This document shows, one piece after another, positions 3,305 to 9,662 of a stretch of DNA of 64,000 nt (its first letter is position 1; the number at the start of each line of letters is the position of its first letter). This stretch comes from Sphingorhabdus sp. M41. GTDB taxonomy: Bacteria > Pseudomonadota > Alphaproteobacteria > Sphingomonadales > Sphingomonadaceae. The stretch lies in the NCBI RefSeq assembly GCF_001586275.1, contig NZ_CP014545.1, positions 248,001 through 312,000 of the forward strand. The letters are read 5' to 3'. The notes under the pieces were generated by a model. It was not told where the DNA came from. It ran no database searches and was given only the letters and a program-made list of their open reading frames with translations. A program made the translations under genes and the position numbers.

Positions 3305-3933
3305 ATTCGGCCTTTCTGTACAGCGCGCTCGGCTGGCTCGATCTTTTCGGGATAGCGGTATTCGCCATTTCCGGGGCGCTGGTCGCGGCGCGCAACCGGC
3401 AGACTTTGGTGACCTTCGGCTTTTTCGCGCTGGTCACCGGTGTCGGTGGCGGTACCGTCCGCGATCTGCTGATCGGCGCGCCGGTTTTCTGGGTGCAGGA
3501 CGCGCGGGTGCCGATCCTGTGCCTCGGGATCGCCTTGCTGGTTTGGCTGACACCGGTCAAATTCTGGCGACCGGCAGCGGTCGACTGGTTCGACGCGATC
3601 GGGCTGGCGGCCTATTCGGTTTTCGGGGCAGCCAAGGCGCTGCAGCTGGGGATCGATCCCGTCCCGGCTGCGATCATGGGGATCATCACCGCCAGTGTTG
3701 GCGGCGTGATCCGCGATCTGATCTCCGGCGAACCGTCGATCATCGTGCGGCCGGAACTTTATGTGACTGCGGGCGCGCTGGCTGCTTTCGTCTTCGTCTT
3801 GCTGGCGCAAACCGGGATACCGGGCTTCATCGCTGCCCTGATCGCCTTTGTCGCAGGTTTTGCGCTGCGCGCTCTGGCAATTGTCAAAGGCCTGTCGCTG
3901 CCCGCCTATCGCGCCGCCGAAGAGAAGGAATAG
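3301..3933 (+). CDS. Trimeric intracellular cation channel (TRIC/UPF0126) family protein
   Basis: A 210-residue polytopic membrane protein with about seven hydrophobic helices arranged as two related halves. Each half carries a glycine-rich kink motif followed by RDL: GGGTVRDLL (about residues 45-53) and GGVIRDLI (about 137-144), the signature of bacterial TRIC channels (YicG-like). These are monovalent cation channels in structural work on homologues; the physiological role in bacteria is unclear. The ATG at 3301 overlaps the upstream stop (ATGA), so I prefer it to an earlier in-frame start at 3160 that would run through the PepSY gene. The 3' end overlaps the convergent sppA by 28 bases. 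Confidence 0.88.
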   Translation: MNSAFLYSALGWLDLFGIAVFAISGALVAARNRQTLVTFGFFALVTGVGGGTVRDLLIGAPVFWVQDARVPILCLGIALLVWLTPVKFWRPAAVDWFDAIGLAAYSVFGAAKALQLGIDPVPAAIMGIITASVGGVIRDLISGEPSIIVRPELYVTAGALAAFVFVLLAQTGIPGFIAALIAFVAGFALRALAIVKGLSLPAYRAAEEKE

Positions 3934-5801
3934 CTCAGCAGCCGGTCGATCCAGTTTGCTGAAGCATTTGCGTTCCGGGTCACGCCGGTGCTGCATTCGA
4001 GGCACAATGCCTGGACATCTTCGCGTACGAGCAAGCCCTGAGCGGTTGCCAGTGCTTCTCCGAAAATCGCTTTTTGACGCTGTGCGGCCCAGCCGATGAC
4101 GCCGGTTACGGGTGCGCTTTGCTGGCGGACGAAGGGAATGCCTTCAAAGGGAAGCCACGAGAATCTGGGTTGCGGATCGAGATATTGCGGGTGGTAGTCG
4201 CCTTCTGCGAGACCCGCGCGTTTTGCTGCCTCGGCAAGCGCCTCGGTCATCCCGCCAAAGCCGTCGACCAATCCAAGTTGCCGGGCCGTGCCGCCATCCC
4301 AGACGCGGCCCTGTCCGATTGTGTCGACTTCTGCCGGGGTCTTGCCGCGCGCGGTCGCAACCAGTTTGACGAAGTCGCCATAGCTGTCTTCGACACCGGC
4401 CTGCAAAATCGCATTGAGGTCTTCACTGAAGCCGCCGACAAAATTGGGCTCGCCCGATAATGGGGTGGTCTGGACGCCGTCAGCGGTCACGCCCCAATTT
4501 GCCAGTGCTTTTTCAAAGCTGGGCAGAACCGCAAACACGCCAATGGATCCGGTGATTGTATCGGGTTCGGCGAAAATATGGTCGCCCGCCGTAGCAACCC
4601 AATAGCCGCCGCTGGCGGCGACATCGCCCATGGAAATGACGATCGGGAGTTTCTTTTTCCTGGCTTCGAGCAGGGCCAGGCGAATTTCCTCGCTGGCGAA
4701 GGCAGAGCCGCCGGGGGAATCCACCCGGACCACCAGAGCCTTGAGGTCATCCTCATCCAGCGCGGTGTAAATCAGTTCCGCGATCCGTCCGCTGGCGGCC
4801 ATACCCGGACCGGTACTGCCCCCAACAATTTCACCAGCAACGGTGATGACACCGATAGCCGAGCCATTTGAATCAACCGGATGCGCGGCAACGAAATCAT
4901 CATAATCAATGCTCTTGAAACTGTCCGGCGAAGGTTTCTCGTCCGCTCCGACTTGCTCAGCAACAAAACGGTCAAAGGCGGTCTTGTCAGCCAGTTTGTC
5001 GACCAGCTTCTGCTCCATCGCAACGGCTGCAAAATCGCCGCCGGCGGCAGTCACGAACGCGGCGGGATCGTCTGCAAAGGCTTTGACCATTGCTTGTGGT
5101 CGGGCCTTTTTGATTTCGCTGACATAGCTGTCCCAGAGCACGCCGTAGAGCGCCTCGGACGCCTCCCGCGCTGCGGGTGACTGGTCGGCGCGCATATAGG
5201 GCTCAACCGCGCTTTTATAGGTGCCGACGCGGTAGATATTGGCAGTCACGCCAAGCCGGTCGATCAGGCCTTTATAGTAAAGCCGATTGCCGCCAGGGCC
5301 AGCAAAGATCATTCCGCCCATAGGGTCCATCCAGATTTCTGTCGCATGGGCGGCGAGCTGGTAGCTGTCGTCGCTATAGAAGCTTGCAAAAGCGTAGATC
5401 GGTTTGCCCGCCTTCCTAGCCCGAGCGAGCGCTTCCCCGACATCCGTCAGGCTGGTCTGGCCACCGCCGGCGAAGCTGCTGAGATCGAGGACAATGGCTT
5501 TGACCCGGTCATCTTCCACAGTAGCATCAATGGCGTGCACGACGTCTCGCAAGCGATATTCGCGCGGACCGTTGCCCGTATTGCTGGCCAGAAAATCTTC
5601 AAAGGTCGGTGCGGCGGGCTCTTCGACAATCACGCCGTTCAGGTCGAGCAGCAAGGCGCCATCGCGAATGGCGGCGCTATTGGGCTGAGACGACAGCAAG
5701 GCATATAGCGCGCCGAAAAACAGCAACATGGCGATCAGCACCATGCCATCCTTGATTGCGACCAAAAATCGCCAAGCTGCTCGCGCAAATTGCATATTCA
5801 T
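3906..5801 (-). CDS. sppA: Signal peptide peptidase SppA, 67K type
   Basis: This inner-membrane serine protease (S49 family) degrades cleaved signal peptides. At 631 residues it is the long, duplicated form. An N-terminal membrane anchor (about 12-37) is followed by two S49 domains. The general-base lysine is K196 in VGTYKSAVEP, and the nucleophile is S397 in MGDVAASGGYW. This matches the known lysine-serine dyad split across the two halves, with about 200 residues between them. The conserved DSPGGSAFASEE loop is at 361-372. The ATG pair at 5801 and 5795 follows AGGAAT. It lies 51 bases downstream of nrsF on the same strand and could be read through from that operon, but has no known functional link to it. 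Confidence 0.93.
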   Translation of the reverse strand: MNMQFARAAWRFLVAIKDGMVLIAMLLFFGALYALLSSQPNSAAIRDGALLLDLNGVIVEEPAAPTFEDFLASNTGNGPREYRLRDVVHAIDATVEDDRVKAIVLDLSSFAGGGQTSLTDVGEALARARKAGKPIYAFASFYSDDSYQLAAHATEIWMDPMGGMIFAGPGGNRLYYKGLIDRLGVTANIYRVGTYKSAVEPYMRADQSPAAREASEALYGVLWDSYVSEIKKARPQAMVKAFADDPAAFVTAAGGDFAAVAMEQKLVDKLADKTAFDRFVAEQVGADEKPSPDSFKSIDYDDFVAAHPVDSNGSAIGVITVAGEIVGGSTGPGMAASGRIAELIYTALDEDDLKALVVRVDSPGGSAFASEEIRLALLEARKKKLPIVISMGDVAASGGYWVATAGDHIFAEPDTITGSIGVFAVLPSFEKALANWGVTADGVQTTPLSGEPNFVGGFSEDLNAILQAGVEDSYGDFVKLVATARGKTPAEVDTIGQGRVWDGGTARQLGLVDGFGGMTEALAEAAKRAGLAEGDYHPQYLDPQPRFSWLPFEGIPFVRQQSAPVTGVIGWAAQRQKAIFGEALATAQGLLVREDVQALCLECSTGVTRNANASANWIDRLLSYSFSSAAR

Positions 5802-5852: not shown

Positions 5853-6491
5853 TTACCAGCGGATAAGAGGGGGAACCAGCAACCGGCCGACAATTGCGCA
5901 TAATGCGACCGCCAGAGAGTACCAGAGCCCGATATAGAATATGCTGTTGAACGGGCAGTGCAGGCTGTAGGCCGCAGCACCCAAAGCGCCGGAAGACATG
6001 CCGACGAGCCAGCCGGCGCGTTCCAGCGCAACCGGCGCGCCACGGCGGAGCCAAAGAACTTGTGCCGCTGCTATGCAAAGGCCCCCCAACATGCTGACTG
6101 CAAGACATTCAAGGCCATAGCGAGGGACCAATATTGTCATATTATCGGGCATGGTCATCATCGCCATGACAGCGGCGGTGACCGGAAACAGCAAGGCGGC
6201 AGCCAAGGCCCATATCCAACCCTTGAAGCTGCTGCCGACGGCCGGCTGGCTCATCGCGATAACCGCATAGCTGCTGGTCAGGCCCAGCAGCAGCAGGGCC
6301 CCGCCCCGCAGAAAGAACATCGGATGCGGCATTCCCATCAGGATGTCCCCGCGAACGCCGGCGATCATGGCGACCAGCACCGTAAGGATAGTTGCAATGG
6401 CCAGCGTAAACGCAAGGCCGTTGCGGTTTTTCAACGGCTTCACCGGCGTCAAATCTTCGACGAGACGATCTATCATCATGTCCGACATCAT
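5853..6491 (-). CDS. nrsF: NrsF (DUF1109) anti-sigma factor for SigF
   Basis: A 212-residue protein with about six membrane helices, the shape of the DUF1109/NrsF membrane anti-sigma factors that hold ECF sigma factor SigF inactive until heavy-metal or oxidative stress. Cysteines are C129, C138, C179 and C198. C129 and C179 are 50 residues apart, the same spacing as the C131/C181 pair I recall as needed for sensing in Caulobacter NrsF. It lies 16 bases after the sigF stop on the same strand, the usual sigma/anti-sigma order. The start is ATG 6491; ATG at 6479 is an alternative. A second identity is unlikely given the neighbour. Confidence 0.88.
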   Translation of the reverse strand: MMSDMMIDRLVEDLTPVKPLKNRNGLAFTLAIATILTVLVAMIAGVRGDILMGMPHPMFFLRGGALLLLGLTSSYAVIAMSQPAVGSSFKGWIWALAAALLFPVTAAVMAMMTMPDNMTILVPRYGLECLAVSMLGGLCIAAAQVLWLRRGAPVALERAGWLVGMSSGALGAAAYSLHCPFNSIFYIGLWYSLAVALCAIVGRLLVPPLIRW

Positions 6492-6507: not shown

Positions 6508-7032
6508 TCATTCTGTTTCGACCATCGCGGAAAGCTTTTTCAGCCCCCGGTGGATATTCACTTTGACCAGCGATTCCGATTGCCCGGTCATCGCGGCCGC
6601 CTCGGTGATGCTGAGGCCTTCAATCTTGACCAGGTTGATCACTTCAGCCTGTTTGGGCGAGATCAGGCCAAGCAGCCGTTCGAGACTGACCTTGGCGGTT
6701 ACCGTTTCGTCCTGCGGATCGGCGACCATTTCTTCGTAAAGCTGTTCATGTTCGTGCCGGTAAATCTTCCGCAGACTGTCGATCCAGCGGTAGCGGCCAA
6801 TCGCTGCGAGCCAGGGCAGAAACGCCCTTGCCGGATCATAGCTCGCCCGCTTGCGGTGGAGCGAGATCAGGGTTTCCTGCACCAGATCATCAATCGCCGC
6901 AGGATTTATCTTGCGGGCATAATAGCGCCGCAGCCATTTTTCGCATTCGGTGAGCAGGCTGGAATAGCATTGCTTGTCGCCGCCTTGCGCCTTGACCATC
7001 AAAAGTCGCATGGTTTCCTCATTGGCGATCAT
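6508..7032 (-). CDS. sigF: ECF RNA polymerase sigma factor SigF
   Basis: At 174 residues this is a minimal ECF sigma factor. Region 2 covers about residues 15-90, with DDLVQETLISLHRKRASYDP around the core-binding and -10 recognition part. Region 4 covers about 115-170, with the helix-turn-helix SITEAAAMTGQSESLVKVNI for -35 binding. It is followed by the NrsF-type anti-sigma gene and preceded by the bufferin genes, the arrangement known for alphaproteobacterial SigF. Two exact copies of the Caulobacter SigF promoter consensus occur in this operon, one of them upstream of doxX-sigF-nrsF, implying positive autoregulation (inference). The start at 7032 is 4 bases beyond the doxX stop. Confidence 0.92.
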   Translation of the reverse strand: MIANEETMRLLMVKAQGGDKQCYSSLLTECEKWLRRYYARKINPAAIDDLVQETLISLHRKRASYDPARAFLPWLAAIGRYRWIDSLRKIYRHEHEQLYEEMVADPQDETVTAKVSLERLLGLISPKQAEVINLVKIEGLSITEAAAMTGQSESLVKVNIHRGLKKLSAMVETE

Positions 7033-7036
7033 CGGG

Positions 7037-7477
7037 TCAGCCGAACTTGTGACCGGTCAGCCGGTCGAGCGAGAAGATTCCGCCGCCGCGTACGATCAAT
7101 ATGCCGGCCAGCGCCACCCATAGAATATGCACCTGCCACCAGGCCTCGGGATAGACGAAAAACTGGATCACCAGGGTCATGACCAGAAGGCCCGCGGCCC
7201 CGATGCGGGTGAACAGGCCCAGCACGACGAGGATCGGGAGAAAATGCTCGGCATAAGTGGCCAATAATCCGGTGATTTCCGGCCAAGGCATGCCATATTC
7301 TTCGCGGAACAGAAGGACTGTGGTGTCGCTCATCTGCAGCCAGCTGCCGTCCTCGACCTTGGTGCGGGCCGAGCGCCAGAAAATGCCGGCGAGGGCTATG
7401 CGGGTGAACAGAAGGGCGATTCCCTCCGGCACGGAAGCGCTCACCAGGCGCACTATTTTCCTGACCATGGACTTCAT
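7037..7477 (-). CDS. DoxX family membrane protein (bufferin operon)
   Basis: A 146-residue DoxX-type protein with four hydrophobic helices, including the family-typical first-helix RIALAGIFWRSARTKVEDG and a second helix starting FLPILVVLGLFTRIGAAG. DoxX proteins often accompany bufferin (bufABC) genes, where a redox or quinone-linked role is proposed but unproven. It begins one base after bufC and ends 4 bases before sigF, so it is clearly part of the same transcript. An internal SigF-type promoter 83 bases upstream of its start could also drive it independently of bufABC. Confidence 0.85.
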   Translation of the reverse strand: MKSMVRKIVRLVSASVPEGIALLFTRIALAGIFWRSARTKVEDGSWLQMSDTTVLLFREEYGMPWPEITGLLATYAEHFLPILVVLGLFTRIGAAGLLVMTLVIQFFVYPEAWWQVHILWVALAGILIVRGGGIFSLDRLTGHKFG

Positions 7478-7478
7478 A

Positions 7479-8210
7479 TCATATTTCCTCGGCTGACTTC
7501 AGTGCCCCGGCCTGGATCAGCTTGACAATATGCTGCATTGCCGTGGCTTCATCACTCAGTTCGAGAGCATGTTCCAAAAGGTTACCCATGGTCGCGCTTT
7601 CGGGAAGTTTTTCGGCAATAGCCTGTTCGGTCGCGGTCAGCGGATGGAATAATATCTGCGCATTCGGTCGGGCGATCATCAATGCGCGCGGGTCTGTGCC
7701 GGCCAGCTCCGGCAGCGCCGATGACAGGGGGGCGGTAAGGCCGATCAGGCGAATCGCCGGGTGGGTGACAACAGGGAAAGCCAGCAGATCGGCTTCGGCG
7801 AGCGTGGCGATATCGGTCAGGGCGACGGGCGCGGCTTCGGCGCTGCGATAGCTTTCCAGCCAGGCCCATTCGATCCGGGCTAGATCGATTTCCGTGCCGC
7901 CATATTCCCGCTCGCCCAGAAAATTGGCGAAGTCGACCCCGATATGGTTCAGGTCGCTGGCCATGATGCTATCCTGCTCGACATAGGCGCGGGAAAGGCT
8001 GTGAAAAGCCTCATGGCCCATATGCTCATGCAACCGGGGATAGCAGTCTTCCAGCGCCACCAGCCGGGCGTGGGAAATTGTATTGGCGTGGGCCTTCAGC
8101 CCCAGCAATGCGCGCGCCTTGTCCTGAGCGAACAGGTCATCGGGAAAATGGGCCGGGCCTTTTTGCAGGCAGGCGATGAAGCGAGACTGGCCTTCAGCGA
8201 GCGAGGGCAT
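7479..8210 (-). CDS. bufC: BufC/HvfC-like DUF2063 protein, partner of the DUF692 enzyme
   Basis: A 243-residue protein with the DUF2063 N-terminal domain (about residues 5-95, including LLGLKAHANTISHARLVALEDCYPRLHEHMG), followed by a less conserved C-terminal domain. In bufferin and related MNIO systems the equivalent protein binds the precursor peptide and presents it to the DUF692 enzyme. It overlaps bufB by 17 bases, which suggests coupled translation and supports a physical partnership. The 3' part of the gene carries an exact SigF promoter match (7560-7585), written partly with less-favoured Leu codons CTT and TTG. Function is assigned from family and context. Confidence 0.85.
   Translation of the reverse strand: MPSLAEGQSRFIACLQKGPAHFPDDLFAQDKARALLGLKAHANTISHARLVALEDCYPRLHEHMGHEAFHSLSRAYVEQDSIMASDLNHIGVDFANFLGEREYGGTEIDLARIEWAWLESYRSAEAAPVALTDIATLAEADLLAFPVVTHPAIRLIGLTAPLSSALPELAGTDPRALMIARPNAQILFHPLTATEQAIAEKLPESATMGNLLEHALELSDEATAMQHIVKLIQAGALKSAEEI
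7560..7585 (-). promoter_or_regulatory. Internal SigF-type promoter inside bufC, upstream of doxX-sigF-nrsF
   Basis: On the minus strand, GTAACC (7585-7580) is followed by exactly 16 bases and CGAA (7563-7560). This equals the GTAACC-N16-CGAA consensus reported for Caulobacter SigF. The -10 element is 83 bases upstream of the doxX start codon, so transcription would begin within bufC and carry doxX, sigF and nrsF. A fixed 10-base match is expected about 0.12 times in both strands of 64 kb, so a second one in the same operon is unlikely by chance. It overlaps coding sequence, so function remains inferred. Confidence 0.6.
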
Positions 8211-9108
8211 GGCGCGGTTCCTCCGACAGGAGGTCGCTCAATATCGTGTCGGCCTTGGCAACTTCTGCCATCAGCACGTCATATTCGGGGATATCCGTGT
8301 CCCATTCGATCAGCGTGGCGATCGGGCCCGCGCGTTCGATAAAGCGCCGGTACAGGTTCCAGCTGACATCGCTGACCATCGAGCCGTGATCGTCGATCAG
8401 CAGCGGTCCGCTGTCATGTGTTTCCGTAGCGTGGCCGGCGAGATGGATTTCACCGACGATCGCCGGATCGATCGCGTCGATATAGGCTTCCATATCGAGT
8501 CCGACATTGGTCGCGGTCACCTCGACATTGTTTATGTCGAACAGCAGGCCGCAGCCTGCCTGACGACAGAGCGCATGGATGAAATCGGTCTCGCTCATCT
8601 CGTCGTCCCGATAGGAGAGATAGCGGGACGGGTTCTCGATCAGGATGGGACGCTGCAGCCGGTCCTGGACCTTGCCGATTTCGCCGGCGAAATGGTCGAG
8701 CGCGTTGCGCGTATAGGGGATGGGGAGCAGATCGGGATAGCGGTCATGGGCATGGCCGCTCCAGCTGAGATGGTCGGACACCATCTTTGGTTGGTAGCGG
8801 TCGCAGAGCGCGGCCAGTTTTTCCAGATCGTCATTATTGAGCCCATCGGCGCTGCCCAGGGAAAGGCCGACGCTGTGGAAGCTCAGCGGATAGGCCCCGG
8901 CGATGGCGGTGAGCCAGCGGTGCGCCGGACCGCCATCGCCGAAGTAATTCTGTGGATGAACCTCAACCCAGGAAGGGCGTTTCGTCTCTGCGGCATCATC
9001 CAGCACATTGCCATAATGCACCGACTTCAGACCTATGCCACCCGATGGGGGGAGGGAATGCGGCATAGTCATCACCGAAGAAACAAGGGGTTCAGAAATA
9101 TCGGCCAT
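8194..9108 (-). CDS. bufB: BufB: DUF692 (MNIO) multinuclear non-heme iron oxidase
   Basis: A 304-residue DUF692 TIM-barrel enzyme. The metal-ligand pattern of the MNIO family is visible in order: FHSVGLSLG, SDHLSW, IENPSRY, FDINNVEV, HLAGH, DDHG and IEWD. Characterised relatives (MbnB and bufferin enzymes) oxidise cysteine in a partner peptide into a sulfur-containing heterocycle. Here the substrate is almost certainly the BufA peptide encoded 18 bases upstream, with BufC (17-base overlap downstream) as partner. The start at 9108 lacks a clear ribosome binding site; ATGs at 9072 and 9066 are alternatives. Confidence 0.92.
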   Translation of the reverse strand: MADISEPLVSSVMTMPHSLPPSGGIGLKSVHYGNVLDDAAETKRPSWVEVHPQNYFGDGGPAHRWLTAIAGAYPLSFHSVGLSLGSADGLNNDDLEKLAALCDRYQPKMVSDHLSWSGHAHDRYPDLLPIPYTRNALDHFAGEIGKVQDRLQRPILIENPSRYLSYRDDEMSETDFIHALCRQAGCGLLFDINNVEVTATNVGLDMEAYIDAIDPAIVGEIHLAGHATETHDSGPLLIDDHGSMVSDVSWNLYRRFIERAGPIATLIEWDTDIPEYDVLMAEVAKADTILSDLLSEEPRHALAR

Positions 9109-9126: not shown

Positions 9127-9414
9127 TCAGCCCTTTTTGGGAACCGGTTTCGCATTGCCCTTGTGCGGGGTTAGCGTGCCGCCGAGTTTGGTGCATTCGC
9201 CCTTGGCAACATATTTCCAGGCATTGCCCTGATAATCGGCGGTCGATGTACCCGCGCAACTGGTACCCGGGCCCGCCGCGCAACCATTTTCTCCGGCCAG
9301 CGCGATGCCGTAGCATTTTTCCTTGGCACCTGCCGCCTGGGCAGGGGTGGCGGACAGGGTTGCAGCAGCGGCCAGGGCGGCAGCGGCGGCGGTCGATTTC
9401 ATCAAAACGGACAT
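9127..9414 (-). CDS. bufA: BufA (DUF2282) bufferin precursor peptide
   Basis: A 95-residue precursor with a signal peptide (about residues 1-28, Ala-rich, cleavage near PAQA-A) and a small core with exactly four cysteines: C34 (KCYGIA), C45 (NGCAAG), C53 (GTSCAG) and C74 (KGECT). This is the DUF2282 bufferin pattern. In the described bufferins the central cysteines are modified by the DUF692 enzyme and the mature periplasmic peptide binds copper, protecting cells. The basic C-terminal tail ([14 protein letters not shown]) is additional. The ATG at 9414 follows GAGAGGA. An exact SigF promoter lies 65 bases upstream, so copper or metal stress induction is expected. Confidence 0.9.
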
Positions 9415-9478: not shown

Positions 9479-9504
9479 TTCGGCGGGGTCGCCGATCCGG
9501 TTAC
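9479..9504 (-). promoter_or_regulatory. SigF-type promoter for the bufferin operon
   Basis: On the minus strand, GTAACC (9504-9499) is followed by exactly 16 bases and CGAA (9482-9479), identical to the Caulobacter SigF consensus GTAACC-N16-CGAA. The -10 element ends 65 bases before the bufA ATG, leaving an untranslated leader of about 55-60 bases. Position, strand and the presence of sigF in the same operon all agree, so this is a strong candidate for the main promoter. Confidence 0.82.
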
Positions 9505-9635: not shown

Positions 9636-9662
9636 TTAGCACTCGGAAGGAGAGAGTGCTAA
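9636..9662 (+). promoter_or_regulatory. CIRCE operator (HrcA binding site)
   Basis: A perfect TTAGCACTC-N9-GAGTGCTAA inverted repeat, the canonical CIRCE element bound by the HrcA repressor, lies 77 bases before groES. A TTGACG hexamer starts at 9601, with possible -10 sequences near 9620-9627, so the operator sits at or just after the transcription start. The hrcA gene itself is not in this window. Confidence 0.97.

Follow-up and report, generated by a model that had tools for sequence, protein, structure and literature searches.

A probable sigma-F promoter within the bufC coding sequence, kept in Sphingomonadaceae ahead of doxX-sigF-nrsF

The 3' part of bufC in Sphingorhabdus sp. M41 very probably holds a second sigma-F-dependent promoter, which would serve doxX-sigF-nrsF and is kept in Sphingomonadaceae. 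We refer to this predicted promoter as P2 and to the one in front of the operon as P1. The window, that is, the whole stretch of DNA analysed, comprises 64,000 nucleotides of a genome consisting of a single contig of 3.34 Mb. The operon runs on the minus strand of the window in the order bufA-bufB-bufC-doxX-sigF-nrsF, with the following features:

9479..9504, minus strand: P1, predicted sigma-F promoter upstream of bufA (exact motif)
9127..9414, minus strand: bufA, bufferin-type precursor (DUF2282; Pfam DUF2282, 81.2 bits, cut-off 22.4)
8194..9108, minus strand: bufB, MNIO maturase (NCBIfam MNIO_BufB, 345 bits, cut-off 310; Pfam MbnB_TglH_ChrH above cut-off)
7479..8210, minus strand: bufC, DUF2063 partner protein, with P2 in codons 209–217 (Pfam DUF2063, 43 bits, cut-off 27.2; translation)
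7560..7585, minus strand: P2, intragenic sigma-F (ECF16-type) predicted promoter in bufC (consensus and conservation)
7553..7555, minus strand: predicted P2 transcription start (about 6 bases past the -10 element, inferred from the B. japonicum EcfF start)
7037..7477, minus strand: doxX, first gene past P2 (Pfam DoxX, 61.2 bits, cut-off 23.6)
6508..7032, minus strand: sigF, ECF sigma factor (Pfam Sigma70_r2 and Sigma70_r4_2 above cut-off)
5853..6491, minus strand: nrsF, anti-sigma factor (Pfam NrsF, 153 bits, cut-off 26.8)

The DUF2282 precursor, MNIO enzyme, DUF2063 partner and DoxX follow each other in the order of a bufferin (Buf1) operon, and the ECF sigma gene is followed by an NrsF-type anti-sigma gene, the arrangement of a SigF-NrsF (ECF16) pair. 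Matches to the NCBIfam models BufA2, HvfC and HvfX in the operon all stay under the models' own cut-offs, and the nrsF product scores below the cut-off of the NCBIfam NrsF equivalog (75 against 300). An sppA-like gene (3906-5801) lies after nrsF. A sigma-70 promoter scan of the region gave one plus-strand consensus match, with 1.7 expected from shuffles, and a scan for attenuation between P1 and sigF gave seven terminator-like sites on both strands, with 2.8 expected; three of the seven are on the operon strand. Positions 9636-9662, ahead of groES-groEL and between the divergent bufferin and chaperonin genes, read TTAGCACTC-N9-GAGTGCTAA, which we take to be a CIRCE/HrcA operator.

P2 reads GTAACCTTTTGGAACATGCTCTCGAA in the window. 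Its -35 element GTAACC (7585-7580) and -10 element CGAA (7563-7560) are separated by a spacer of 16 bp, and both elements and the spacing are those of the ECF16 consensus, quoted as tGTAACc-N16-CGAA (PMC3420878). The distance from the end of the motif to the doxX ATG on the same strand is 83 bases, as the earlier note on this DNA had stated; for the P1 motif and the bufA ATG it is 65 bases. The start of transcription is placed by analogy with EcfF of B. japonicum, for which a start 6 bp downstream of the -10 element is reported (PMC3420878). P2 has G instead of T before GTAACC, a position given in lower case in the quoted consensus and thus not strictly defining. G precedes 83% of 70 intragenic sites, whereas T is the preceding base in 72% of the 60 sites ahead of bufA and in 91% of the 22 ahead of sigF. 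The presence of G rather than T suggests that P2 may be a weaker promoter than the sites with T.

Just two exact motifs occur in the window (7560-7585 and 9479-9504, both minus strand) and both belong to the sigF operon, in agreement with the earlier note, whose chance estimate of 0.12 per 64 kb is also of the right order: dinucleotide shuffles of the window contain a mean of 0.06 exact motifs, and one of 100 shuffles contains two or more. Nevertheless, the whole 3.34 Mb genome has 12 exact matches to GTAACC-N16-CGAA against 10 for a reversed-pattern control. The motif count alone is therefore no evidence, motif statistics were rejected as the sole basis for P2, and the evidence is conservation across relatives. 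Two of the other ten matches in this genome lie shortly upstream of same-strand open reading frames. One (C1:493981-494006, minus strand, L003) is 61 bases before a 119-residue bufA-like frame that has 11 protein letters in common with bufA and is likely a second bufferin precursor under SigF. The other (C1:1773801-1773826, plus strand, L008) is 20 bases before a 214-residue lipoprotein-like frame, a possible further SigF target.

Within the genus, bufC was found in 28 of 32 genomes, and the exact motif is present in all 28, including L039. In 27 aligned sequences with 61–100% protein identity, it is written GGT AAC CTT TTG (TTA in two), then CTC or ATC, then GAA. CTT and TTG are indeed less favoured leucine codons, as had been claimed (11.5% and 16.1% against 49% for CTG in 31 long open reading frames of the window). 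The earlier note had also asked for a comparison of synonymous sites in relatives; here, the motif is undiverged, being exact in every genus genome with bufC found and nearly always present in family members with sigF downstream.

We widened the survey by a family search (199 genomes, 33 with a bufC match, 30 loci used), by an order search (296 genomes, 90 with a bufC match, 40 stretches used, mostly the stronger matches) and by named sigF loci, of which the best 80 of 319 were used (45 with bufC upstream and 35 without). For 31 of the 35 genomes that have no bufC upstream at the named sigF locus, bufC was sought in the rest of the data, and nine gave a match. The pooled set comprised 149 bufC records, from which 34 duplicates were dropped to leave 115 distinct sequences; loci added later are left out of the counts. 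Where sigF is found downstream of bufC (82 sequences), 71 have the exact motif, three have one mismatch (L108, L042 and L044) and eight have none. Where no sigF is seen downstream (33 sequences, of which 29 leave 1200 bases or more of room and four leave less), two have the exact motif and 31 have none. The presence of P2 follows the gene order bufC-doxX-sigF (Fisher p = 1.6e-16, uncorrected for relatedness).

The position of the site is kept as well. All 71 exact intragenic sites share a reading frame; in 70 the distance to the bufC end is 66–132 bases, and in L058 it is 201. The doxX match begins 78–202 bp past the site and is the nearest following gene in all 71 sequences. Among the best 80 of 319 named loci, those with bufC upstream of sigF have the exact intragenic motif in 44 of 45 cases and a one-mismatch version in the remaining one, P2 starting 551–822 bp before the sigF match in 44 of 45. 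In 36 of these 45 loci, the 400 bases preceding the bufA match contain a P1-type exact motif, and in 37 an exact P1 starts 2.5–2.9 kb before the sigF match. bufC keeps the site down to about 38% protein identity.

In the 35 named loci without bufC upstream of sigF (again from the best 80 of 319), an exact motif is present before sigF or bufA in 29. In 22 of the 35 it starts 35–322 bp ahead of the sigF match, and in seven it stands before the bufA of a bufA-doxX-sigF operon; the other six have no exact motif before sigF or bufA, and in three of these the contig ends just upstream. In one bufA-doxX-sigF operon (L125:4940-4965), an exact motif begins one base past the doxX match and may be a promoter for sigF that overlaps the doxX 3' end. 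Three Blastomonas loci (L110:5522-5547, L124:3285-3310 and L134:5522-5547) have an exact motif between the sigF match and nrsF, close behind the former, which would fit a third promoter dedicated to nrsF. L042 (3548-3573) and L044 (3443-3468) have a motif after sigF, too; nrsF is unmatched in these cut loci. Among 20 loci from outside the order, taken from a class search of 385 genomes, neither a motif in bufC nor a sigF match after bufC was found; sigF is divergent in four and doxX follows bufC in 18.

Two groups depart from this pattern. Genus g78 (nine sequences) keeps bufC-doxX-sigF, but the site is absent in eight, and one sequence has an exact motif elsewhere in bufC. These eight are all of the motif-less sequences with sigF downstream, and the segment is deleted in them. 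An exact motif upstream of bufA is present in 8/9 of the genus, and L166/L220 has a one-mismatch site. With exact sites still standing before bufA and a deletion in bufC, drift of the motif was rejected as an account of the missing P2. The predicted promoter P2 is thus dispensable in this genus. Two genomes of genus g2 (L199 and L200) represent the opposite case: the exact site is kept, but bufC-doxX is followed by sppA and not by sigF-nrsF, and an ECF16-like gene lies elsewhere in the genome. A further genome of this genus, Blastomonas aquatica (L110/L203), has sigF at the locus. The sppA-like gene directly after doxX in L199 and L200 corresponds to the one after nrsF in the window, which is consistent with loss of the sigF-nrsF pair; alternatively, since the site remains, doxX may itself be a target. 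The two genomes thus suggest either that sigF-nrsF was lost from the locus or that doxX alone benefits.

We tested the codons of bufC for constraint at the DNA level in 73 sequences, many of them from the window's own genus; the nine of genus g78 were left out. When codons are replaced at random by synonyms according to local codon use, 1.33 exact motifs are expected, whereas 70 are seen, in support of the suggestion in the earlier note that the promoter constrains the coding sequence. The residue before the asparagine is G, R, S or C, yet its codon is always nGT (GGT 59, CGT 6, AGT 4, TGT 4); asparagine is AAC and glutamate GAA in 73/73; and the residue before the glutamate is of nine kinds (I, L, A, T, G, D, V, C and S, in ten codons), with C as third base in all 73. 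By parsimony on the bufC tree of these sequences, the third base of a codon column changed at least 23 times in the median of 231 columns, and the only columns with no such change are two tryptophan codons and four motif codons (209, 210, 216 and 217). The codon before the glutamate underwent at least 23 amino-acid changes with its third base constant, and the codon before the asparagine underwent at least nine with GT constant. In a thinned set of 47 sequences below 75% identity, codons 209, 210, 217 and 211 (the last only partly inside the motif) rank first, third, fourth and fifth of 118 columns for excess synonymous conservation. The second rank is held by the codon of Ala42, in HANT, with an identity of 0.80 against 0.29 expected. 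The site in bufC thus shows DNA conservation beyond protein constraint and a tie to the downstream gene, as expected of a conserved intragenic promoter that constrains its host gene.

Selection on the DNA would leave its mark on the protein, since fixing the codon series nGT-AAC-C ... nnC-GAA also fixes Asn and Glu in BufC. Asparagine is found at the site in all 73 sequences of the site-bearing group, three of which have the one-mismatch motif, and at the aligned place in none of the 31 bufC sequences that have no motif and no sigF seen downstream. Those 31 are mostly distant relatives, in which phylogeny and context are confounded; genus g78, within the family, has Asn at the aligned place in 0/9, with E, A, R or D there and the segment deleted. 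Across the family, the autoregulatory promoter has probably reshaped part of the C-terminal region of this RiPP partner protein: residues such as Asn210 and Glu217, and the limit to G, R, S or C before the asparagine, would be set by the promoter and not by protein function, with other residues taken where the promoter is absent.

The converse, that the letters are conserved only through constraint on the BufC product (G-N-L-L ... E) and through codon bias, draws on the invariance of Asn and Glu in the 73 segment-bearing sequences. It is very improbable and was rejected on the codon data: flanking residues vary while nGT and the third-base C stay fixed, AAC and GAA are used without exception, recoding yields far fewer exact motifs than seen, and Asn is missing from both the 31 sequences and genus g78. 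A chance match, for which the near-equality of 12 genome-wide matches and 10 in the control might speak, is hardly credible for a motif that 70 of the 73 relatives in the site-bearing group have in exact form and in the same frame.

Two further explanations accept the site as a genuine target of SigF. SigF-RNA polymerase could bind without making productive mRNA, the site acting as a pause, a roadblock or a titration site, and intragenic PhoB sites in E. coli are reported to be mostly inert (PMC10294691). The same report describes the PhoB sites as mostly unconserved, whereas the bufC site is retained even where protein identity drops to about 38%, is spaced from doxX as a promoter would be (78–202 bp in all 71 sequences) and tracks the downstream sigF; we thus regard an inert site as improbable. 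Less easily dismissed, but still unlikely, is an active sigma-F promoter that mainly yields doxX, or else a short RNA arising at the 3' end of bufC, with read-through into sigF-nrsF incidental. The constant position of doxX next to the site and the retention of the site in L199 and L200 agree with this. Nevertheless, these two are the only site-bearing sequences among the 33 without sigF seen downstream, even though a doxX match follows bufC in at least 13 of the remaining 31, and outside the order doxX follows bufC in 18/20 loci while the site occurs in 0/20, albeit in phylogenetically distant comparisons. Taken together, the sequence comparisons support an intragenic SigF promoter that serves doxX-sigF-nrsF.

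In this mechanism, metal or redox stress would inactivate NrsF, by analogy with Caulobacter, and the freed SigF would drive both P1, giving bufA-bufB-bufC-doxX-sigF-nrsF, and P2, giving doxX-sigF-nrsF in an autoregulatory manner. We infer that SigF-RNA polymerase starts transcription at P2. P2 would hold sigF and its anti-sigma gene near an autoregulatory promoter despite the 2.5–2.9 kb that separate them from P1, and its benefit would presumably be separate control of the regulator genes, perhaps with the uncoupling of sigma/anti-sigma dosage from peptide production that the earlier note proposed. Elsewhere in the family, the predicted sigF promoter is often directly in front of the gene, as is often the case in alphaproteobacteria examined by experiment; it would lie inside bufC where doxX-sigF-nrsF sits behind bufC.

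The closest parallel is SigF-NrsF of Caulobacter crescentus, for which the same -35 and -10 elements, the 16-bp spacer, a sigF promoter of the same type and the same target genes (DUF2282, DUF692, DUF2063 and DoxX) are reported (PMC3511200), and whose SigF regulon is described as copper-induced (PMC8224329). There, however, sigF-CC3252 and CC3254-CC3257 are reported to be transcribed separately, and sigF is preceded by its promoter (PMC3511200), whereas here the promoter would lie inside bufC. Own promoters or autoregulation of ECF16 sigma genes are reported from experiments in other alphaproteobacteria (PMC3511200, PMC3420878, PMC6180224); as predicted for sigF here, the sigma genes of S. meliloti RpoE7-EcfR7 and B. 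japonicum EcfF-OsrA are said to activate their own promoters (PMC6180224, PMC3420878). In Sinorhizobium meliloti, rpoE7-ecfR7 is likewise described beside a DUF692-DUF2063 operon, but divergent from this target operon (PMC6180224). Bufferin gene clusters with sigma and NrsF genes have been surveyed (PMC12452194), and intragenic promoters and binding sites are reported to be many but mostly poorly conserved (PMC10294691). The open-licence literature searched, as far as its accessible parts go, names no promoter inside a DUF2063/bufC gene.

The site in bufC, kept over a family and tied to gene order, offers a test case for regulatory DNA that constrains a coding sequence, and it also bears on why a sigma/anti-sigma pair should keep its own promoter inside an operon controlled by SigF. 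If our reading is true, conservation of residues in the P2 part of BufC should not be taken as a sign of a role in peptide maturation.

An intragenic FliA promoter in enterobacteria, reportedly described by Fitzgerald et al. in 2018, is said to be broadly conserved and to constrain its host protein. The predicted P2 would likewise be a promoter for an alternative sigma factor that is embedded in a gene, broadly kept, and limits the encoded protein; it differs in sigma class and genes, and SigF would act there on the genes of SigF itself. ECF16 promoters under autoregulation are known, as are promoters inside genes, and what appears to be new is that such a promoter has become fixed inside a coding sequence across a family, with consequences visible in the protein.
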